A stretch of DNA of 31,422 nt from a virus, in the IMG/VR virus record IMGVR_UViG_3300045922_000987, positions 1 through 31,422 of that record; one strand, written 5' to 3'. This document shows, piece after piece, positions 4,715-20,004 of this stretch (position 1 is its first letter; each line of letters starts with the position of its first letter). The notes beneath the pieces were generated by a model, which was not told the origin of the DNA, made no database searches, and saw only the letters and a program-made list of their open reading frames with translations. Position numbers and translations under genes: made by a program.

Positions 4715-5052
4715 TTCGCCCGACCGCTTTTCATGACCTTTCGCCGGAGCGCGCGCGGCTCGTGCGGCTGTTTCAGACGATCAACTTCGGACGGATCGAG
4801 GAACTGGAGATCCGTAACGGCGAGCCGCAATTCAGCCCATCACCGAGGGTCTTCGTCGAAGTGAAGCTCGATTCTGAAGATAGCCCGCGTCCGGAGTCGC
4901 GGCTCAGCGACTTCGCCTTGCGGCGTCCGATTGAGCGGTTCTTCGAGCAGGTCGCCCGTTTGGAAGACGGCACTATCGAGCGGATCGAGGTCCGGCACGG
5001 GCTGCCATTCCGGATGATCGTCGAGGCTGCGCCGGCGGGGGTGTTGTCATGA
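4711..5052 (+). CDS. Small unknown early protein
   Basis: A 113-residue protein with GGGGGAGAG ten or so bases before its ATG. It has a mixed alpha/beta look and two similar short strands, GRIEELEIRNGEPQF and GTIERIEVRHGLPF, which suggests an internal duplication of a strand-turn unit. No family is recognised. It overlaps both neighbours by ATGA, so it is translated with the 112-residue protein upstream and the sigma-like protein downstream. Confidence 0.65.
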   Translation: MIRPTAFHDLSPERARLVRLFQTINFGRIEELEIRNGEPQFSPSPRVFVEVKLDSEDSPRPESRLSDFALRRPIERFFEQVARLEDGTIERIEVRHGLPFRMIVEAAPAGVLS

Positions 5053-5573
5053 CGCCCGCCGCTGCCACCATCGATCCCTTCGCTCTCCAGCAAGCCGGGA
5101 TTCGCGCGAGCCAACTCGTCGCGTCTTTCGGTTTCCATCGCGCCGACTGGGACGATCTGCGCCAGGACTTACTGCTCGACTACTTGAAGCGCAGCCGCCA
5201 CTACCAGTCGGGGCGCGGCGAACACCGGGGCTTCATCTTCGGCGTCGTCCGAAATCGTGCCGCGCGTCTCGCCATCCAGAACGGCCGGCGTCCGACGTTC
5301 ATCAGCGGCGTCGACGACCGGGTGCTGATGCGGAACTCGTGCGCCTGCCTGGCAGAGCCGTCCGCGCCGATCGAACTGCAGATGGATGTGCGCAAGGTTG
5401 TCGCGTCCCTTCCGGAGCACCTGCGCGAGGTTGCCGTGCTGCTCAGCCGGATGTCGGTGGCCGAGGTGAGGCGGGAGACAGGCAAATCGCGGCCCCGGAT
5501 CTACCAGATGATCGGCGAGATCCGGCAGGCTTTTCAGGAAGCGGGCTTGGCACCCAGCGGAGGTGCTCGATGA
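5049..5573 (+). CDS. Sigma-70-like (ECF-type) protein
   Basis: A 174-residue protein with the two-domain plan of a small sigma factor. Residues about 28-80 resemble region 2: DWDDLRQDLLLDYLKR, then GEHRGFIFGVVRNRAARLA, matching the usual acidic DADDLxQ-like helix and the WLxxIxRN helix. Residues about 110-165 resemble region 4: VVASLPEHLREVAVLLSRM, then a helix-turn-helix SVAEVRRETGKSRPRIYQMI. The match is by pattern only and the -10 recognition residues are divergent. It could direct RNA polymerase to phage promoters, or be a sigma-derived regulator that no longer binds polymerase. Its position at the head of the replication operon fits a switch role. It overlaps both neighbours by ATGA. Confidence 0.7.
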   Translation: MTPAAATIDPFALQQAGIRASQLVASFGFHRADWDDLRQDLLLDYLKRSRHYQSGRGEHRGFIFGVVRNRAARLAIQNGRRPTFISGVDDRVLMRNSCACLAEPSAPIELQMDVRKVVASLPEHLREVAVLLSRMSVAEVRRETGKSRPRIYQMIGEIRQAFQEAGLAPSGGAR

Positions 5574-8275: not shown

Positions 8276-10449
8276 CAGCAGACCGCACATGCATCCGCGG
8301 CACCGTGGAGACGGTGTTCTATTCGGGGCCGACGTTCAGCGCCGGACGGCTTCGGACTTCTGAAGGCGAGGATGTGAAATTCGCGGGTCGGGTATTCGTG
8401 CGAACGAGCGATGCCGTCAGGTTGGAAGGGCGGTGGGTGAACCATCCGAAATATGGCTGCCAGTTCGAGGCGGACTGTATGGGGCACGACCTGGAGATGG
8501 ACCCCGAGGGGCTGGCCAACTTCCTCGCCAATCACCCCGACGTCAAGGGCATCGGACCCGCGAAAGCGCGGCTGATTGCGGACCGGTTCGGCCGTGAGTT
8601 TGACCAAGCAACCCGCAACCGGCCAGAGGAGATTGCCGCCACGGCGAAGGTTCCGGTCGAGACTGCGATGGAGTTGCAGCGGATCTGGATCGCCAACAGC
8701 GAATTCAATACAGCGATGGCGTACCTTGCGGCGTTCGGACTGACCCACCATCAGGTCACGACGCTGGTCCGGAAGTTCGGCAGCCAAGTGGTCCCGATCT
8801 TGGAGAGCGATCCGTACCTCCTGGTGCGCGAGATTCCAGGCTTCGGCTTCAAGCGCGTGGATAAGATCGCGCGCAAGATGGGCACGCCCAAGGATCTGCC
8901 GTCGCGCATCCGCGCGGGGCTGCACTACTGCGTCCTCGAAGCTCTGGACAACGGCGACTGCTGGGTCGAATACGAGGATCTCCTTAACCGGGCCAACACT
9001 CTGCTGGTGATGGACAGCCTCGACAGCCGTGAGGTGATCGAGACCCATCTGGAAGCTCTGCTCACGGAAGGGCGCCTGATCTCTCATGCCTTTGAGCGGC
9101 TCGTGGTTGCCGATCCGGAGATCCATCGCATGGAAGCGGAGCTCGCCACTGTCTTGAGGGCGGGTGCGGCAAGCAGCCCACATTCGGTTGCCGATGTCGA
9201 TCGATTGCTCGATGCCGAGGGAGGCGAGCTCAATGCCGAACAGCGCCAGGCTGTGAGGAATGCACTGACGTACTCCATCTCGTTGATGACAGGCGGCGCG
9301 GGCAGCGGAAAGACCTATGCGGTTTCGACGATCGCCTCTATCGCCGAGCGGCTGGAACGGAAGGTTGTCCTTGCGGCTCCGACGGGCAAGGCGGCCAAGC
9401 GGCTGGAAGAGGTAGTGGGCATCGAGGCGAGCACGATCCACCGGCTCTTGGGCTTCAACGGCCACACCTATGCGCGCGATGCGCTCAACCCCGTCGAGGC
9501 CGACATCCTCGTCATCGACGAAGTCTCCATGGTGGATGTTCCGCTCGCCTGGCGGCTGTTCCAAGCGATCGACCGCTCGCGGACTGCAGTCGTGCTGGTC
9601 GGTGACCATAACCAATTGCCACCGGTAGGACCGGGGAATTTGCTCAGGGATCTGGTCCGTTCGGCGGCGATTCCAACAACCATCCTGACGCGAATCATCC
9701 GCCAGGCGGGGGTGTTGAAAGAGAACTCCACCGCGATCCTCGCTGGTGAGGTCCGGCCGACGTCGGATGTGCAGGTGGGCGCGCGCCGCCCTTGGTACGT
9801 CATCGACAAGTTCTCCGATCGGGAAGATGTCCGCAGAATGCTGCTCCTGTTGTTCGACGAGGTGTTGAGCGACCGGCTTGGGTACGACCTGATCCGCGAT
9901 GTCCAGGTGCTAACGCCAACGCACAAGGGTCCGCTCGGCACGGCGGAGTTGAACGTAGCCCTGCAACAGCTTTTGCAGAAGCGGCTGTACGGGATCACTG
10001 TTCCGCCAGTCGATCCCAACCGTCGGCCGCCGCTCTACGCCGGCGACAAGGTGATTCAGACGAAGAACGTCTACGAGTTGGGCGTGATGAATGGCGCGAT
10101 GGGTGTTGTGCTGGAGGTTCGATCGGATGGTTCGCTGTCGATCGACTTCGATGGCAGGCCGGTGGAGATCGATGCCGGGTCCGATGCCATCGGAAACATC
10201 CACCTGGCTTACGCGACGTCGATCCACAAAGTGCAGGGCTCGGAGTTCCCGTGTGCCGTTGTGATCGCCCACAAATCGCACTCCTTCATGCACCATCGCA
10301 ACCTGCTGTACACGGCAGTGACGCGTGCGAAGGAGTCGGTGATCATCCTGGGTGACCGGTGGGGCATCGACAATTGCGCGAACAAGCGACAGGTGGATCG
10401 GCGGAACACCTTCCTTTCTTTCCTGCTCGAGGGGGATCGTGATCGATGA
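8272..10449 (+). CDS. recD2: RecD2-type SF1B DNA helicase
   Basis: A 725-residue helicase, the usual RecD2 length; the ATG at 8272 has AAGGAGG eight bases upstream. The N-terminus has an OB-like segment and a helix-hairpin-helix KGIGPAKARLIADRFG at 92-107, with a second one near IPGFGFKRVDKIA. Walker A is GGAGSGKT at 341-348, Walker B is VIDEVSMVD with DEVS at 416-419, and the C-terminal motif YATSIHKVQGSEFP is present. RecD2 unwinds DNA 5'-3'. Phages carry it in replication modules. It overlaps the ERCC4 nuclease upstream and the primase downstream by ATGA, so the three are made together. Confidence 0.93.
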   Translation: MTADRTCIRGTVETVFYSGPTFSAGRLRTSEGEDVKFAGRVFVRTSDAVRLEGRWVNHPKYGCQFEADCMGHDLEMDPEGLANFLANHPDVKGIGPAKARLIADRFGREFDQATRNRPEEIAATAKVPVETAMELQRIWIANSEFNTAMAYLAAFGLTHHQVTTLVRKFGSQVVPILESDPYLLVREIPGFGFKRVDKIARKMGTPKDLPSRIRAGLHYCVLEALDNGDCWVEYEDLLNRANTLLVMDSLDSREVIETHLEALLTEGRLISHAFERLVVADPEIHRMEAELATVLRAGAASSPHSVADVDRLLDAEGGELNAEQRQAVRNALTYSISLMTGGAGSGKTYAVSTIASIAERLERKVVLAAPTGKAAKRLEEVVGIEASTIHRLLGFNGHTYARDALNPVEADILVIDEVSMVDVPLAWRLFQAIDRSRTAVVLVGDHNQLPPVGPGNLLRDLVRSAAIPTTILTRIIRQAGVLKENSTAILAGEVRPTSDVQVGARRPWYVIDKFSDREDVRRMLLLLFDEVLSDRLGYDLIRDVQVLTPTHKGPLGTAELNVALQQLLQKRLYGITVPPVDPNRRPPLYAGDKVIQTKNVYELGVMNGAMGVVLEVRSDGSLSIDFDGRPVEIDAGSDAIGNIHLAYATSIHKVQGSEFPCAVVIAHKSHSFMHHRNLLYTAVTRAKESVIILGDRWGIDNCANKRQVDRRNTFLSFLLEGDRDR

Positions 10450-13184
10450 GTGCTCCCGTGGAGGTGCAAGAGTATTACCGGCGGCTGACCGATTTAGATA
10501 TCGGCGAGCTGGCGCGTGAACTGCTCGACGGCCGGATCATGCAGGAGTCTGACCGGACGCTTTTCTGCGACTGTCCGAACCACCGCAGCCAGTCGCAGCG
10601 TTCACTGCACGTCATGCTCGATCGGCAGGGCTGGTATTGTTTCGGCTGCGGTGTTGGCGGCGACGTACTCCAACTTGTCGAGTTCGTCCGGTTCGGGGTC
10701 GTCACGCGCGGCCGATCGGGAGCGATGCCCGAATCGCACCGGCAGGCCCGCGACTTCCTCGCCGAACGCGTCGGGCTTCCCTCCCTGTCGCGCCTTGGCC
10801 GCAACGCTGAGGAGATCTCCGAGGTCGAGGAGGAACACCGCCTCAGCCTTCGGGTGCGGGAAGCGTTAACGGCACTGGCCGACGTGTATCACCAACGGTT
10901 GATCGGGAACGCCGAAGTGCTCGGATGGTTTCAAGCGAAGTACGGCATTGGGTTCGAGACCACTGCAAGGCTGAAGATCGGTTTCGCGGACAACGCGGAA
11001 CCCAGTCCTGCGCGTGTCCTTCAAGAAGGCCCCAGTGCTTTCAGCCTGCGGGAACTGACTGCCACTTCGGCATTCCGGCCAACGGCGCAGGACGGTGTCG
11101 TTCCTTTCTTTGATGGGCGTATTGTGTTTCCGTATTGGAGCCGCGGGCATGTCGTCTTCATGATTGGGCGCCGGACTCCATGGACACCAGAGTTCGAGTG
11201 GGAGAAGTCCAAGTACAAGAAGCTGCCTGTCCGGAACGACCGAAACAACAGCCACGTAGCGCTGTGCATCCGGAACGATGTTCTGTACAACGAAGACGTG
11301 CTGGTCACGCGCCCGGAGCGGGTCGTCATCACCGAGGGGGTGACCGACTGCATTTCGCTCATGGAGAAGGGCTTCCCTGCGGTATCGCCCGTCACCGTGC
11401 AAATCCGCGACGCTGACTGGGATCGACTCCTCCCGAAGCTCGCCGGCGTGAAGACCGTGTTCATCTGCCAGGACAACGAGGTCTCGCAGGCCGGTACACA
11501 AGGCGCGCTGAAGACGGCGCGCATCCTTGCCGAACACGGTATCGCAACGCGCGTGGCCATCTTGCCGTTGGGGGACAAGCAACTCGCCGCACGCCAGGCA
11601 TTGGCATCGGCGCCAGCTGACAGCTCAGAAACACAGCGGCTACTGGCGGAGGCGAAGATCGACGTCAACGAGTTCTTCGCCTCGGGCAAGACAGCGGCTG
11701 ATTTCGAAGCCATCCTCACCGCCGCCCAAACGCCGCTCGAGATGGCAATCGCGAAGCTGCAGCCCGGTGCGCAGGACCTGGCGACGCTACTCGACCCGAT
11801 CCTGGCCGAGGTCCATCAACTCGATCCCATCGAGCAGCCGCGCTACCTGAAGCTGATCCAGGCGAAGTGTGGCAAGGGACAACTCCCGATGTCGGCATTG
11901 CGGCAGCAGATGAAGGTGGTCCGGATTGACACTCCGCGAGGGAGCCGATCGCGCCAGCAATCCGCCGCAGCCGCCAAACCGGGCGTGCAGTCATGGCGCG
12001 ATTCCCTTCTACTCAACCTGAACGGGACAGTGAAACCAGTGCTCGCCAACGCGATCACGGCGCTTCGGTGCGCGCCCGAGTGGTCGGGTGTCCTCGCCTA
12101 CAACGAGTTCGCCCACTTCAACGTCATTCAGAAGCCTGCGCCATGGATGACGCCGGACGCCAGTTTACCGGTGGATTGGTGCCCGAATGACGACATTCTG
12201 GCGACCGATTGGCTGCACCACCAGGGCATCTACGTGTCGGTGGAAAGTGCGGCCCAGGCAGTGGAGTCCGTCGCGCGAGAGCGGCTATTCCATCCGGTCC
12301 GCGAATATCTCAAGAACCTGACGTGGGATGGATCACCGAGGCTTCATCTCTGGCTGTCGGACTATCTGGGCGTTCCCCCGTCACCTTATGCTGCAGCGGT
12401 CGGATCCAGGTGGATGATCTCAGCGGTGGCTCGCGTGTTCGAGCCGGGCTGCAAGGCGGACTGCTGCCTGATCCTCGAAGGCGAACAGGGCATCCGGAAG
12501 TCCACCGCCCTGCGCATCCTCGCCCAGCCGTGGTTCACCGACGAGATCGCCGACATCGGCTCGAAGGATGCTGCGCTGCAGACCCGTGGTGTCTGGGTGA
12601 TCGAGATCGCTGAGTTGGACTCGTTGTCCCGGTCCGACATCGGCAAGATCAAGGCGTTCATGAGTCGCGGCGCCGATCGCTTCCGTCCTCCTTACGGGAA
12701 GCGGCCCATCGAGTCACCGCGCCAGTGTGTTTTTGCCGGCAGCGTGAATCATGCAGCCTACCTGCGTGACGAAACCGGTGGGCGCCGATTTTGGCCGGTC
12801 GAATGCAAAGCCCCGGTGATCGATGTCGAGTCGCTGGCGGAGAACCGGGATCAGCTCTGGGCCGAAGCGACAGCGCTGTATTTCGATGGGAAACCGTGGT
12901 GGCTCGATTCGGTGGCTCTCAACCGCGAAGCGGCTCAGGAGCAGGCTGAGCGGTACGAAGGCGACCCATGGGACGAACTGATCCTCGAGTGGGCGGCAGG
13001 ACGCGACTCCGTATCGATCGCTGATGTCCTCAGCATGTGCCTCGACAAGAAGAAGGACATGTGGACGCAATGGGACCGCAATCGCGTGGCGCGTTGCCTG
13101 CGGGCGAATGGGTGGACACGCTTCAATGCCGGATCGCGCGGCGCAAGAGAGTGGCGGTATCGGCGGCCAACATTCGCGGAGTGA
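10446..13184 (+). CDS. Primase-helicase: CHC2 zinc finger, Toprim-like and VirE-type ATPase
   Basis: A 912-residue three-part replication protein. Residues 41-68 are a CHC2-type zinc finger (C43, H46, C65, C68; QGWYCFGCGVGGD). A Toprim-like core follows: RVVITEGVTD with E297, then VFICQDNEVSQAG with D343. The C-terminal half is a virulence-associated E (VirE) ATPase: LTWDGSPRLHLWLSDYLG, Walker A GEQGIRKST at 679-687, Walker B VWVIEIAELD, then FAGSVNHAAYLRDETGGRRF. It would prime and unwind phage DNA. Toprim normally shows DxD where this has DNE, so the metal site may be altered. The repeat array begins five bases after its stop, which suggests a link to an origin. It overlaps recD2 by ATGA. 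Confidence 0.9.
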   Translation: MSAPVEVQEYYRRLTDLDIGELARELLDGRIMQESDRTLFCDCPNHRSQSQRSLHVMLDRQGWYCFGCGVGGDVLQLVEFVRFGVVTRGRSGAMPESHRQARDFLAERVGLPSLSRLGRNAEEISEVEEEHRLSLRVREALTALADVYHQRLIGNAEVLGWFQAKYGIGFETTARLKIGFADNAEPSPARVLQEGPSAFSLRELTATSAFRPTAQDGVVPFFDGRIVFPYWSRGHVVFMIGRRTPWTPEFEWEKSKYKKLPVRNDRNNSHVALCIRNDVLYNEDVLVTRPERVVITEGVTDCISLMEKGFPAVSPVTVQIRDADWDRLLPKLAGVKTVFICQDNEVSQAGTQGALKTARILAEHGIATRVAILPLGDKQLAARQALASAPADSSETQRLLAEAKIDVNEFFASGKTAADFEAILTAAQTPLEMAIAKLQPGAQDLATLLDPILAEVHQLDPIEQPRYLKLIQAKCGKGQLPMSALRQQMKVVRIDTPRGSRSRQQSAAAAKPGVQSWRDSLLLNLNGTVKPVLANAITALRCAPEWSGVLAYNEFAHFNVIQKPAPWMTPDASLPVDWCPNDDILATDWLHHQGIYVSVESAAQAVESVARERLFHPVREYLKNLTWDGSPRLHLWLSDYLGVPPSPYAAAVGSRWMISAVARVFEPGCKADCCLILEGEQGIRKSTALRILAQPWFTDEIADIGSKDAALQTRGVWVIEIAELDSLSRSDIGKIKAFMSRGADRFRPPYGKRPIESPRQCVFAGSVNHAAYLRDETGGRRFWPVECKAPVIDVESLAENRDQLWAEATALYFDGKPWWLDSVALNREAAQEQAERYEGDPWDELILEWAAGRDSVSIADVLSMCLDKKKDMWTQWDRNRVARCLRANGWTRFNAGSRGAREWRYRRPTFAE

Positions 13185-13317
13185 AGGTGTGTTCCAGTCT
13201 CACCCCGTGTTCCAGTCGGTGTTCCAGTCGCGTGTTCCAGTCTAAGTGCCTTGTTTTCAAGGCGGTGTTCCAGTGTTCCAGTCATTCAACGCGCGCGCAC
13301 GCGAGAGAGGAATTGAA
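13185..13317. repeat. First repeat cluster: six same-strand copies of GTGTTCCAGT
   Basis: Six exact copies begin at 13189, 13207, 13219, 13232, 13265 and 13273. The last two overlap to form an 18-base doublet. The start-to-start spacings are 18, 12, 13, 33 and 8 bases. Most copies are followed by C. A purine-pyrimidine alternating stretch (ACGCGCGCGCACGCG, 13289-13303) follows. Spacing is too irregular and too short for CRISPR. The position right after the primase-helicase gene suggests replication iterons or operators. Confidence 0.85.
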
Positions 13318-14118
13318 ATGCATAGTTCCACCACCCGGATCGACACACACGGTTCAAATTTTTATGGAAAGAGTACAGAACCCGTCTGCGCGACTGGAAC
13401 ACTGGAACACGGGCCACAAAGTCTATTGCCATCAGAGACTTCCGGTGTTCCAGTAAAGTCCGGCGCTGATTCTGAGACTGGAACACTGGAACACCAATCG
13501 CAGGTTGAGATGTTCGTATCGACTTGCCTGCGAACGTGGACCACCGACCAGCCACAAATCTTCGCGCGTGATGTTCAGATCAACGACACCGCTTACCGAC
13601 GCCTCGACCCTGAGTATTTCGCCTGGCTCCGCTCGAAGATGACGATGGCGAAGCTGGCCGCCAATGCCGGGCAACTCAACCGCGATGAGTTCGATTCGCT
13701 CCGGGCGAGGTTCAACATCATTCAGGATTGGGCCATCCGTCGATTCGGCGAGCCCGCATTGCTGGAAGGTGTCCGCGGCCTCGACACGCAAACCTACACG
13801 CCGCCAGTCGCCGAACCGGATTCTCCTCCGCAGCCGAGCCGACCCGCAGAGGCAGTAAAGGACACCGTCCTGGCGAAGGTCGATGCGATCCGAGAGCGAG
13901 CAGTGAGCCTGGGATGGACCACGGACCAACTCTACGCCACAGGCCCGTCCGGCAGGTTTGGCGTCTCTTACGACCGCGGCCTGGTTTGCTACCTGAAACC
14001 TCACGACGAGATTGGTGAGGTTACGAGCCAGTCGATCGAGATCATCCTGCCCAATGGTGTGCGGCAGCGGTTCTACAACATGCTCGTCGAGCAGCCATGG
14101 ATTACACGCCTCCGTTGA
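13318..14118 (+). CDS. Unknown phage protein with repeat-encoded N-terminus
   Basis: A 266-residue reading; AGAGAGG lies seven bases before the ATG at 13318, which decides this start. A shorter start at 13510 (MFVSTCLRTWTT) is possible, because the first 64 residues are low in complexity and overlap the second repeat cluster, which encodes GTLEH twice. The part from about residue 65 looks like a genuine folded protein: a helical region (YFAWLRSKMTMAKLAANAG, then NIIQDWAIRRFGEPALLEG), a proline-rich linker (PPQPSRPAE), and a C-terminal domain with GRFGVSYDRGLVCYLKPHDE and IEIILPNGVRQRFYNML. I recognise no family. It follows the primase-helicase and may work at the repeats, by position only. 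Confidence 0.65.
   Translation: MHSSTTRIDTHGSNFYGKSTEPVCATGTLEHGPQSLLPSETSGVPVKSGADSETGTLEHQSQVEMFVSTCLRTWTTDQPQIFARDVQINDTAYRRLDPEYFAWLRSKMTMAKLAANAGQLNRDEFDSLRARFNIIQDWAIRRFGEPALLEGVRGLDTQTYTPPVAEPDSPPQPSRPAEAVKDTVLAKVDAIRERAVSLGWTTDQLYATGPSGRFGVSYDRGLVCYLKPHDEIGEVTSQSIEIILPNGVRQRFYNMLVEQPWITRLR
13393..13494. repeat. Second repeat cluster: inverted doublets of GTGTTCCAGT
   Basis: Four inverted copies (ACTGGAACAC) begin at 13393, 13401, 13477 and 13485, as two overlapping doublets, with one direct copy at 13445. The 19-base word GACTGGAACACTGGAACAC is exact at 13392-13410 and 13476-13494, and its inverse is exact at 13265-13283. The inverted doublets could fold against the direct doublet as long hairpins. 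An AT-rich patch (13353-13370) lies between the two clusters, as in origins that melt beside iterons. Confidence 0.85.
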
Positions 14119-14845: not shown

Positions 14846-16111
14846 GTGACTTTCGCTTCCGTTTGTTCCGGCATCGAAGCAGCAACGGTTGCCTGGGAGC
14901 CCCTTGGCTTCCGTGCAGCCTGGCTGGCCGAGATCGATTCGTTTTGCTCTGCGCTGCTGGCGCACCACTATCCCGATGTCGAGAACCGTGGCGATTTCAG
15001 CCGGATTGACCGGGGATCGGGCGCAATCGACGTTCTGGCCGGAGGAACTCCATGCCAGTCGTTTTCAGTCGCCGGAAGACGAGGCGGCCTGGAGGACGCA
15101 CGCGGTAACCTGGCCATCGAGTTTTGCCGCCTTGCTGGCAGACTCCGGCCTCGCTGGATCCTCTGGGAAAACGTCCCCGGTGTTCTGTCGTCGAACGGCG
15201 GACGGGACTTTGGTTCCATCATCGGGGCGCTGGCAGAACTCGGGTATGGTTGCGCCTGGCGAGTGCTGGACGCTCAGTTCTTCGGAGTGCCCCAGCGACG
15301 CCGTCGCGTCTTCGTTGTCGGACACTTTGGAGACTGGCGGCGTGCCGCGGCGGTACTACTTGAGCGCGCGGGCCTGTGCCGGAATACTCCGGCGTGCCGC
15401 AAAACGCGGGAAACAGTTGCCAGCGGTTCTGTACGTGGCGCTGAGGTCGGTCCTTTTGGAGGCCGGTTTACGGACCTAGCTCCGACGCTCGATGCGCGGT
15501 GCAAGGACAGCGCGATCCGAAATCAGATTGGCCTGCTGGTGTTCGGCGGCGGGAACACATCGGGGGTGATCGACGTCGCGACAGCACTGACCCATCACGG
15601 GGTGCGCCAGGATTTCGATACGGAGACGTTCGTCGCGCACACGCTTCGTGGTGACGGATTTGACGCCAGTGAGGATGGGACGGGGCGCGGCACGCCGATT
15701 ATTCCGATGGCTTTTTCATCAAAGGACCACGCCGCGGATGCAGGTGGGACGGCGCCGACTCTCCGGGCGATGCCGCACCATACGAGCCACTCGAATGGCG
15801 GCGGCCAGATCGCAGTCTGTGTTCAGGAAGGTCAAACAGGAGTTCGGGAGTACGAAACTGCGGGAACGGTACGGTCTGACGCGCCCGGTTCACAGCGGGG
15901 AGGGAGCCTCATCCGTGATCGTTATGCGGTGCGGCGGCTGACGCCGCGCGAGTGCGAACGGCTGCAGGGATTTCCGGACGACTACACGCTGATCCCGTAT
16001 CGCGGCAGACCTGCCGCAGATGGGCCAAGGTATCGAGCAATCGGAAACTCAATGGCTGTTCCGGTCATGCGGTGGATCGGCCGGAGGATGCAATTGGTGG
16101 ATGCGCTGTGA
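14846..16111 (+). CDS. DNA (cytosine-5) methyltransferase
   Basis: A 421-residue C5-methyltransferase. The motifs are in the classical order: FASVCSGIEAATVAW (SAM binding, residues 3-17), GGTPCQSFSVAG with catalytic C70, ENV at 108-110, QRRRRVF at 150-156, LTPRECERLQGFPDDY at 365-380, and AIGNSMAVPV at 398-407. The variable target-recognition region spans about 165-355. It starts at GTG 14846; the frame is closed by a stop at 14816-14818 and no ATG is available. It would methylate C5 of cytosine in a short site, protecting phage DNA or changing expression. No partner restriction enzyme is nearby, so it is a solitary phage methylase. Its stop overlaps the next gene by GTGA. Confidence 0.93.
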   Translation: MTFASVCSGIEAATVAWEPLGFRAAWLAEIDSFCSALLAHHYPDVENRGDFSRIDRGSGAIDVLAGGTPCQSFSVAGRRGGLEDARGNLAIEFCRLAGRLRPRWILWENVPGVLSSNGGRDFGSIIGALAELGYGCAWRVLDAQFFGVPQRRRRVFVVGHFGDWRRAAAVLLERAGLCRNTPACRKTRETVASGSVRGAEVGPFGGRFTDLAPTLDARCKDSAIRNQIGLLVFGGGNTSGVIDVATALTHHGVRQDFDTETFVAHTLRGDGFDASEDGTGRGTPIIPMAFSSKDHAADAGGTAPTLRAMPHHTSHSNGGGQIAVCVQEGQTGVREYETAGTVRSDAPGSQRGGSLIRDRYAVRRLTPRECERLQGFPDDYTLIPYRGRPAADGPRYRAIGNSMAVPVMRWIGRRMQLVDAL

Positions 16112-17568
16112 TTGCGGCACTACTCAGACAGACTGAATTGTGGCCTGTGGAGCGGCTCGTGCCGTACGCCCGGAACCCGCGGACCCACAACGAGCAGCAG
16201 GTGGCGCAGATTGCCGCTTCGATCATGGAGTTTGGCTTTAACAACCCCATCCTGGTGGACTCGCAGGCTGGCGTGATTGCGGGCCATGGACGGTTGCTCG
16301 CGGCGCGGAAGCTGGGGATGGCGAGCGTGCCGGTGATCGTGCTGGACCACCTCGACGAGAATCAGCGACGGGCGTACCTCGTCGCGGACAACCGGCTGTC
16401 GGAGCTTGCGGGTTGGGACTCGGAGTTGCTGGCGCAGGAACTGAAGGAGCTTTCGGAAGCTGGGTTCGACGCGACACTCGCCGGTTTCGACGCCAAGGAG
16501 ATCGACGATTTCATCGCGTCGCTGGAACGAGGAAGCGAGGTCGCTGAGACACAGCAAGCTGAGGCGCCTATACCGGAGGTGCCGGAAGAGGCGGTGACAC
16601 GCCCCGGTGATCTGTGGTTGATCGGCCCCCACCGCCTGATCTGTGGCGACTGCCGGGATGCGGCTATTGTGTCGCGGCTCTTCGAAGGGCGGAAGGCCAA
16701 CGTGGTGGTCACCTCGCCGCCGTATGCCACGCAGCGGCAATACGACCCGTCGAGCGGTTTCGAACCCGTGCCGCCGGAGAAGTACTCCGCCTGGTACCGG
16801 GCCGTTGCGTCAGCGATCGAGTCCGTGCTGGCTCCTGACGGATCCTACTTCCTGAACATCAAGGCGCATGCCGAGGACGGCGAACGGCACACCTACGTGA
16901 TGGATCTGGTGCTGGCTCACAAGCGGCACTGGGGTTGGCGGTTCGTCGATGAACTCTGCTGGCGCAAGACGGACGACGGTGTGCCGGGCGGCTGGAACAA
17001 CCGCTTCAAGAACGCGTGGGAGCCGATCTTCCACTTTTCGCGGGGCCGCACGATCAAGTTCAACCCCCGAGCCGTCGGGCACTGGTCGGATGACTGTTTC
17101 GACTACTCGGCGGACAATCCTAGGTCGACGTCCGGAAGCGGACTCCTGGGAACTGGCCCTCGTGGCGCGGCGGCGGACAAAGGCAAGAACCATGGCGCTT
17201 GGCAGACTACGCGCCGCAACGCGAACGACATGGAAGGCCGGCGCGGTGGAGTGGCCCGGCCATCGAACGTGATCGAGGCCAAGACCGAGTCGAGCCAGGG
17301 ATCGCACTCCGCGCCTTTCCCACGAGCCATTCCGGAGTTCTTCATCAAAGCATTCACCGATCCCGGTGATCTGGTCTTCGATCCGTTTACCGGGAGCGGG
17401 ACCACCCTCGTCGCTGCCGCGCAACTTGACCGCATGGGCCACGGCGTCGAGATCAGCCCGGCCTACTGCGACGTGATTTTGCGGCGGCTCGAGGAAGCGC
17501 TCAACCTTACGCCTGTCCACGCCGCGACAGGCCAACGTTTCTCAACTCAAACCCCTTCGAAGGAGTAA
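16108..17568 (+). CDS. ParB-domain DNA methyltransferase, SPPY type
   Basis: A 486-residue fusion starting at GTG 16108, inside the previous stop codon. Residues about 10-95 are a ParB/Srx-like domain (PVERLVPYARNPRTH, then VIAGHGRLLAARKLG). The methylase follows: motif IV SPPY at 203-206, then motif I FTGSGTT at 427-433, the beta-class order of N4-cytosine or N6-adenine enzymes. SPPY is commoner among N4-cytosine enzymes, so N4C is favoured but not certain. The insert between the motifs (about 300-410) is large, rich in glycine and arginine, and probably holds target recognition. ParB-type domains in such enzymes may help bind DNA or hydrolyse nucleotides. A related enzyme with DPPY lies 1.2 kb downstream. 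Confidence 0.9.
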   Translation: MIAALLRQTELWPVERLVPYARNPRTHNEQQVAQIAASIMEFGFNNPILVDSQAGVIAGHGRLLAARKLGMASVPVIVLDHLDENQRRAYLVADNRLSELAGWDSELLAQELKELSEAGFDATLAGFDAKEIDDFIASLERGSEVAETQQAEAPIPEVPEEAVTRPGDLWLIGPHRLICGDCRDAAIVSRLFEGRKANVVVTSPPYATQRQYDPSSGFEPVPPEKYSAWYRAVASAIESVLAPDGSYFLNIKAHAEDGERHTYVMDLVLAHKRHWGWRFVDELCWRKTDDGVPGGWNNRFKNAWEPIFHFSRGRTIKFNPRAVGHWSDDCFDYSADNPRSTSGSGLLGTGPRGAAADKGKNHGAWQTTRRNANDMEGRRGGVARPSNVIEAKTESSQGSHSAPFPRAIPEFFIKAFTDPGDLVFDPFTGSGTTLVAAAQLDRMGHGVEISPAYCDVILRRLEEALNLTPVHAATGQRFSTQTPSKE

Positions 17569-18547: not shown

Positions 18548-18748
18548 ATGAAGTTCTCTGTGAATGTTGCCATCCAGATGCTGGCGCTTGCCGCTCAGGG
18601 TCTGAACGCCACGATGGAACTGTTGCCCGGTCGCGGCAAGTTCTGGGCGATGGTCGGGCTGTCTGCGGTGCAAGGCGTGACGGCCGTGCTCGCCCACTTC
18701 GCAAACCCTGACGGCACGCCGGCGCAGGTTGCCTACCTCAAGAAGTGA
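18548..18748 (+). CDS. Small hydrophobic phage protein ending in NPDGTPA motif
   Basis: A 66-residue protein; CAGGAG lies nine bases before the ATG at 18548, which favours it over in-frame starts at 18479 and 18521. A mildly hydrophobic stretch (FWAMVGLSAVQGVTAVLAHF) could be one membrane segment or a buried helix. It ends NPDGTPAQVAYLKK, an ending I have seen in small phage proteins of unknown role. It overlaps the next methyltransferase by GTGA. A holin-like role is conceivable but not supported by charge or topology. Confidence 0.6.
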   Translation: MKFSVNVAIQMLALAAQGLNATMELLPGRGKFWAMVGLSAVQGVTAVLAHFANPDGTPAQVAYLKK

Positions 18749-20004
18749 ACACCGATCTCCAAATCGAGCGCTGGTCCGTCGATCGGCTGATTCCGTATGC
18801 CCGCAATGCGCGTACGCACAGCCCGGAGCAGGTCGCGCAGATTGCTGCGTCGATCGCGGAGTTCGGCTGGACGAATCCCATCCTCGTCGGTGCCGATGGC
18901 GTCGTGATCGCCGGCCACGCCAGGCTGCTGGCCGCGCGAAAACTCGGAATCTCCGACGTTCCGGTCATCGTTCTCGATCACCTCAGCGATTCACAACGCC
19001 GCGCGCTGGTCATTGCTGACAACCGCCTCGCGCTGAACGCAGGTTGGGATGAAGAGATGCTGCGCGTCGAACTCGAGGCGCTGCGCGAGGATGAGTTCAA
19101 CCTGGATCTGCTTGGCTTCGGCGTCGATGAGATGGATGCACTGCTCGCGGAACCGGAAGCCGCAATCGCCGGCAACACGGACGACGATGCGGTCCCGGAG
19201 ACGCCCGAAACCGCGGTGACGGTGCCCGGCGATGTCTGGCTGCTCGGGGATCATCGGCTGCTTTGCGGCGACGCCACGCAGATCGATTCCGTGGAGAAGG
19301 TGCTGGCCGGGGGACTCGCGGACATGGTCTTCACCGATCCGCCCTACAACGTGAACTACGGGGCGACGATGAAGAACAAGTTGCGCGGCAAGAAACGGAA
19401 GATCGCCAACGACAACCTCGGCGACGGCTTCGAACAGTTCCTCCGCGATGCGTGCACAAACATCCTGACGGTCACCAAGGGCGCGGTCTACATCTGCATG
19501 TCCTCGTCCGAGCTGCACACGCTGCAGAAAGCGTTCCGTGATGCGGGCGGCCACTGGTCCACGTTCGTCATCTGGGCCAAGAACACCTTCACCATGGGCC
19601 GCTCCGATTACCAGCGGCAGTACGAGCCGATCCTCTATGGGTGGAAGGAAGGCTCGGACCACTTCTGGTGCGGAGCCCGCGATCAGGGGGACGTCTGGTT
19701 CGTCAAGAAGCCCGTCTCCAATGACCTGCATCCGACGATGAAGCCGGTTGAACTGGTGGAGCGCGCCATCCGCAACAGCAGCAAGAGCCGGGACACTGTG
19801 CTCGATCCGTTTGGCGGTTCGGGATCGACGCTCATTGGCTGCGAGAAGGCGGGCCGCCAGGCGCGGCTGATCGAATTGGAGCCGAAGTATTGCGACGTGA
19901 TCGTCCGGCGCTACCAGGAGTTCAGCGGGAAAGAAGCCACACTCGAGGCGGATGGCCGGCGGTTCGCAGACTTGGCCGCCGAACGCCTGGGAGTAGCGGC
20001 ATGA
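18745..20004 (+). CDS. ParB-domain DNA methyltransferase, DPPY type
   Basis: A 419-residue enzyme starting at GTG 18745 inside the previous stop. Residues 8-95 are a ParB-like domain that aligns with that of the SPPY enzyme almost without gaps (WSVDRLIPYARNARTH, then VIAGHARLLAARKLG). The catalytic part has motif IV DPPY at 198-201 and motif I FGGSGST at 356-362, the beta class expected for N6-adenine methylation. It looks like a sister of the upstream enzyme that kept the N-terminal domain but carries another catalytic domain. The short insert with LRGKKRKI may contact DNA. It would protect or mark phage DNA at a second sequence. The stop overlaps a frameshifted small gene. Confidence 0.92.
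   Translation: MNTDLQIERWSVDRLIPYARNARTHSPEQVAQIAASIAEFGWTNPILVGADGVVIAGHARLLAARKLGISDVPVIVLDHLSDSQRRALVIADNRLALNAGWDEEMLRVELEALREDEFNLDLLGFGVDEMDALLAEPEAAIAGNTDDDAVPETPETAVTVPGDVWLLGDHRLLCGDATQIDSVEKVLAGGLADMVFTDPPYNVNYGATMKNKLRGKKRKIANDNLGDGFEQFLRDACTNILTVTKGAVYICMSSSELHTLQKAFRDAGGHWSTFVIWAKNTFTMGRSDYQRQYEPILYGWKEGSDHFWCGARDQGDVWFVKKPVSNDLHPTMKPVELVERAIRNSSKSRDTVLDPFGGSGSTLIGCEKAGRQARLIELEPKYCDVIVRRYQEFSGKEATLEADGRRFADLAAERLGVAA

Follow-up and report, generated by a model that had tools for sequence, protein, structure and literature searches.

The array of short repeats at 13189-13494 of the window (the whole 31,422-nucleotide stretch analysed, from a virus contig) is very probably an iteron origin at which a soil phage starts replication, recognised by the primase-helicase whose gene lies immediately upstream. 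Sequence comparison brings together the array itself, a plan conserved among relatives, a tie to the primase gene, covariation between the repeated word and a loop of the primase, and an AT-rich core. Origins of this kind, served by a self-loading primase-helicase, are already known from SaPI Rep and P4 alpha; what is new here is a testable code linking iteron and wing, and a plan that outlives its words.

The iteron array and its core

Eleven exact copies of GTGTTCCAGT (seven on the plus strand, four on the minus) all lie inside 13189-13494, as a first-pass annotation of the sequence had reported. Its account of the layout also holds: six direct copies in 94 bases (13189-13282) precede two inverted doublets and one further direct copy, and a 19-base doublet occurs exactly three times, once direct and twice inverted. 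The array begins where that annotation placed it relative to the primase-helicase, whose stop ends at 13184, with the first copy running from the fifth base after. Elsewhere in the window, the word is matched with one mismatch or fewer at a single site (28085, one mismatch); 100 shuffles gave a mean of 1.29 and a maximum of 5 such matches. Copies of any 10-mer per 306 bases number 11 here and at most 2-4 in simulated sequence (first-order Markov, whole window). The features of the locus are listed by coordinates and strand.

10446..13184, plus: primase-helicase, 912 aa, candidate initiator acting on the array, with CHC2 zinc ribbon, Toprim_2, VapE-like helicase (PF05272) and C-terminal winged helix (Pfam and PHROGs)
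12951..13181, plus: C-terminal winged-helix domain, residues 836-912, candidate iteron-binding domain (AlphaFold2 model)
13125..13145, plus: wing residues 894-900 (NAGSRGA), Arg898 at 13137-13139, covarying with the word (mutual information; partial Mantel)
13189..13241, plus: left singles, four direct iterons starting at 13189, 13207, 13219 and 13232; spacing shared with L021, L031 and L045
13265..13283, plus: left doublet, inward-pointing, two words 8 bp apart; doublets of 8-10 bp are kept across word classes
13284..13391, no strand: origin core, candidate melting site, about 108 bp, AT 0.49 versus 0.37 for the window
13318..14118, plus: 266-aa open reading frame, its ATG in the core, its first ~60 codons traversing the right-hand iterons
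13353..13370, no strand: AT-rich patch, the AT-richest 18-mer in the window
13392..13410, minus: right doublet, inward-pointing, opposed to the left one; exact 19-base doublet
13445..13454, plus: lone iteron flanked by the two right doublets, exact word match
13476..13494, minus: outer right doublet, exact 19-base doublet

The AT-rich patch noted at first pass is the most AT-rich 18-mer of all 31,422 bases and is a probable DNA unwinding element. The alternating CG stretch also noted there runs from 13290 to 13303, inside the core. All 19 arrays measured have a core of higher AT content than the locus it belongs to. GC skew along the window makes no switch at 13.3 kb. The right half of the array falls within the 5' end of the next open reading frame, and GAGAGAGG, a Shine-Dalgarno-like run, precedes the ATG of that frame.

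The primase-helicase and its winged helix

The helicase is homologous to Rep/PriRep, and its closest solved relative is PriRep1 with double-stranded DNA (7pds), matched with E 1.3e-58 in sequence and 5e-22 in fold. Toprim primase, helicase and winged helix are joined in one chain, which is the P4 alpha-type plan. AlphaFold2 models residues 836-912 with a mean pLDDT of 85.6 and elements in the order helix-strand-helix-helix-strand-strand. Searched by fold on its own, this domain gives weak matches (best E 0.03), most of them to winged-helix DNA binders; MecI, BlaI-DNA and the FoxO1 DBD are among the matches, as is 7pds through its C-terminus.

Relatives sharing the word

Relatives were sought by scanning with the 18-mer doublet, and multi-copy arrays alone were counted because the doublet by itself also matches unrelated loci. 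Matches set aside include tandem 8-mers in Bacteroidales (L041), sites within genes of Sulfurimonas (L026, L047) and short phage contigs (L009-L019). The same array follows the same primase tail in two viral contigs (L020, L021), an Acidobacteria MAG (L036), Bryobacterales (L028 and isolate F-183, L045) and a MAG labelled Steroidobacteraceae (L031), with spacing the same as or close to that of the window (about 18, 12, 13, 33 and 8). L017 and L023 carry GTGTTCCAGT arrays 3' of the primase that are more divergent than those of the other relatives sharing the word. Two further arrays mix GTGTTCCAGT with variant words: that of L022 lies just 3' of the VapE-like helicase of an AT-rich phage, that of L024 just 3' of a gene with no PF05272 match, and both of these genes have a different C-terminal tail. 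In the Verrucomicrobiota L037 and L039, GTGTTCCAGT doublets are scattered through intergenic stretches with similar flanks, with no adjoining primase recognised, and perhaps form an unrelated intergenic repeat family.

The first-pass annotation had suggested that an iteron origin would be contradicted by absence of the repeats from relatives with the same replication genes, or by a repeat family spread over the host chromosome. The array is found beside the primase in close and distant relatives alike. The genome of Bryobacterales F-183 has 28 exact copies of the word: 10 make up a single array of 305 bp, and 18 occur one by one across 6.3 Mb, close to the count given by a reversed-word control (10). 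A host-wide repeat family is rejected on this count. The annotation's proposal of a replication origin with iterons is thus strongly supported.

A plan that outlives its words

A broader sample took in 58 viral relatives of the primase and, from a second scan, 43 helicase-domain matches, with contigs partly shared between the two. Where a relative's 3' side is complete, the primase is nearly always the site of the strongest 9-mer array in the locus. Most of these arrays lie 0-300 nt after the primase stop, some 1.2-2.7 kb downstream, and others within the final ~500 nt of the reading frame. In L075, L076 and L077, the array is wholly or partly within the 3' end of the primase frame, so the repeats encode the primase's C-terminal tail. 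An exact-word array near the primase gene was not found in L096, L107, L110, L144, L150 or L153-L157.

The word differs by lineage. The words include GTGTTCCAGT, GTGTCCCAGT, GGTCCACGT, TGGGGATCT and GGTGAAAGG; CTGGAACAC, CTGGAACCA, CTGGGACAC, CTGGGACGC, ACGTGGACC and ACGTGCACC; and AGATCCCCA, CCTTTCACC, CCTTCGCAC, CCTTTCTAC and ACCACCGCA, among others. Within one array the copies agree, and from one lineage to the next they have changed together along the whole array. What is kept is the plan: first direct singles, then a doublet spaced by 8-9 bp, an AT-rich core of ~100-115 bp, an opposed doublet and more copies. Facing doublets occur in 16 of 22 arrays of different lineages, with 0.56 expected under random placement; because the arrays are related by descent, this figure speaks for a plan conserved while words are replaced, not for 16 independent origins. 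L058 has kept its wing and its word positions while the words themselves have drifted. A degenerate-pattern scan for REWRYR recovered more winged-helix tails with an array directly 3' (L167, L189, L191, L208, L232), in a mixed set that also contained chance matches and tails lacking any array within 450 nt.

Covariation of word and wing

In a set of 17 lineages, the distance between words tracks that between wings once helicase distance is controlled (partial Mantel r 0.73, P 0.0002). In the same 17 lineages, partial Mantel tests found no word signal in the recognition helix (-0.04), the helicase (-0.04) or the segment preceding the recognition helix, and segment 852-874 retains a small one (partial r 0.22, P 0.017). 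The helix WTQxDxxRVARCLRAxGW is nearly constant between word classes; the wing (residues 894-900) is variable. L023 shares just 51% scaffold identity with the window, yet it keeps 9 of 11 wing residues (GPRGAREWRYR kept) and has the identical word. Five relatives (L061, L064, L067, L068, L072) share 79-82% of the scaffold with only 6-7 of 11 wing residues, and their words are different. At single-residue level, the consensus has G at word position 1 in 11/11 sequences with Arg898 and in 0/10 without it; L078, with Ala in place of Arg898, has mostly A instead of G there.

Mutual information alone fails to separate the primase from the 266-aa protein as reader, since faster-evolving proteins score high by descent; the partial Mantel tests and the cases of L017 and L023 were used for that reason. 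Covariation between word and wing supports recognition of the repeats by the C-terminal domain of the primase, and one short protein loop, the wing, probably reads the word. Among the binders proposed at first pass, the primase is the one favoured. The rule carries a prediction: a domain with the L061 wing should prefer GGTCCACGTC.

Known systems and isolate phages

The self-loading Rep helicases of staphylococcal pathogenicity islands (SaPI) are of the VapE type and have an iteron origin directly 3' of the helicase gene that is recognised by the C-terminal domain (PMC7581432). The window has in common with SaPI Rep/PriRep-type replicons a VapE-type helicase and short repeated words directly 3' of its gene that flank an AT-rich stretch. 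The primase part differs, being CHC2/Toprim (DnaG-like) here and AEP-type in SaPIbov1 and SaPI5 (PMC7581432). The right iterons of the window, unlike those of the SaPI systems, lie inside the next gene, and its hosts are probably soil Acidobacteriota. In P4 alpha, a winged helix binds origin repeats (PMC4234260); the likeness to P4 alpha, with Toprim-type primase, helicase and winged helix fused, is claimed for the domain plan only.

The GenBank record of the Streptococcus thermophilus phage Sfi21 labels a 302-bp non-coding stretch just 3' of the primase both an origin of replication and a phage inhibitory sequence, and this region is an infection-activated origin (PMC6356513). Within it, TTAGTTAC forms facing 8-bp doublets (60+, 68+ and 147-, 155-). 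Sfi21 resembles the window in placing the repeats just 3' of the primase gene, in having doublets of 8-bp spacing that face each other and in its AT-rich core; it differs in its word, in doublet distance (87 versus 129 bp in the window), in host and in primase architecture. Iteron plasmids likewise combine direct repeats with an AT-rich unwinding region. Their Rep protein is usually not itself a helicase; in the window, by contrast, the proposed binder is the helicase itself, and opposed doublets flank the core.

Exact-word counting in 14 isolate or complete phages with a VapE gene gave a clear array directly 3' of that gene in eight: Marinobacter PS3, Staphylococcus tp310-2, Sfi21, Kosakonia Kc259, Paenibacillus Bob and Pd_22F, Synechococcus S-LBS1 and Rhodobacter RcAqua. 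The array is weak in two (Acidovorax ACF1, NatCom_34192) and displaced by one gene in Pseudomonas Haddon. The same counting gave no array in the Bacteroides phages BU1-1 and BS162P3 or in NatCom_33527.

The downstream reading frame

The 266-aa protein has no family match in Pfam or PHROGs. Compared with L036, changes affect 2 of the 18 word codons and 32 of the 46 remaining codons in the N-terminal stretch (P 4e-5); the words are conserved inside a leader that otherwise changes fast. In distant homologues, the conserved part of the protein starts at about the end of the last iteron. In most relatives a homologue is the gene directly 3' of the array, also where array and primase have separated; none was detected in L017 or L023. 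An accessory role for the protein is possible.

Proposed mechanism and alternatives

From these elements we infer binding, melting, loading of a double hexamer and bidirectional replication. The C-terminal winged helix of the primase-helicase would bind words of 10-11 bp, with specificity set by the wing loop, and monomers would occupy the doublets (8-bp period) and the outlying singles. A hexamer would assemble at each inward-pointing doublet, the core would melt at the AT patch, and two helicases would load in opposite orientation. The fused Toprim primase would then lay primers, leading to bidirectional replication.

Linkage alone does not decide for the primase, because detached arrays (e.g. 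L086, L101) stay upstream of the 266-aa gene. Such arrays, and the position of the window's array across the start of the 266-aa frame, would suit a transcriptional operator for the downstream gene, bound by a phage regulator or by the primase, with replication starting elsewhere. That reading is nonetheless unlikely: arrays of the same plan occur where no 266-aa homologue was detected (L017, L023, L079, L136, L138, L141, Sfi21, PS3), the same layout is annotated as an origin in Sfi21, a promoter scan around the array found no sigma-70-like promoter, and word specificity tracks the primase wing. The large operator offered at first pass is less favoured. It is very improbable that the 266-aa protein, in place of the primase, is the iteron binder and the initiator or loader. 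Nearly all close relatives do have gene and array together, even where the primase lies 1.2-2.7 kb off, and some columns of the protein also track word class; however, the columns that score highest owe part of their coding sequence to the iterons, the protein belongs to no recognisable DNA-binding family, and it cannot be a general reader because L017 and L023 share the identical word with no detectable homologue.

The inverted copies could also be read as structured RNA or DNA cruciforms, with concerted word change as compensatory pairing. RNA of 13185-13500 is indeed more stable than shuffles (z -4.7), but this stability is a consequence of the inverted words being present, pairing ends at the word edges, and an Rfam search gave no family match. 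The direct singles, too, change in concert, and one arm could not pair with all of them; the words, moreover, covary with a protein loop. The cruciforms raised at first pass are less favoured, and structure as the explanation is highly improbable. ParB_N domains in the window bring to mind a partition centromere, which would serve the ParB-like methyltransferase fusions at 15952-17568 and 18745-20004. The array adjoins the primase, not these fusions, which are 2.5-5 kb away, and like arrays lie beside VapE genes with no annotated ParB in the stretch (PS3, tp310-2, Sfi21), making a centromere extremely improbable.

Implications and neighbouring genes

To our knowledge, the origins of most phages are unmapped. 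If the word-wing rule is true, the origin of a VapE-type phage and its specificity class could be read from sequence alone. Changes at Arg898 and at G1 would offer a simple bench test of origin recognition by a self-loading helicase, and origin-based phage exclusion, such as that by the Sfi21 inhibitory sequence, could be explained. The chances are about even that the matter extends further, with one origin plan (facing doublets of 8-9-bp period around a melting core of ~100-115 bp) common to phages of several bacterial phyla whose primase-helicases are VapE-type or related and with the wing loop setting the word residue by residue (Arg898 for G1), so that words and compatibility groups would be predictable from protein sequence alone.

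Elsewhere in the window, the two fusions of ParB_N with a DNA methyltransferase are paralogues within one phage, and a C-5 cytosine methyltransferase gene (14846-16111) stands beside them. The contig seems to be cut at its left end. The C-terminal part of an integrase (30-680; PHROG 95) and a sigma-factor-like protein (5049-5573; PHROG 1740) are also encoded, and these genes are consistent with a temperate phage.
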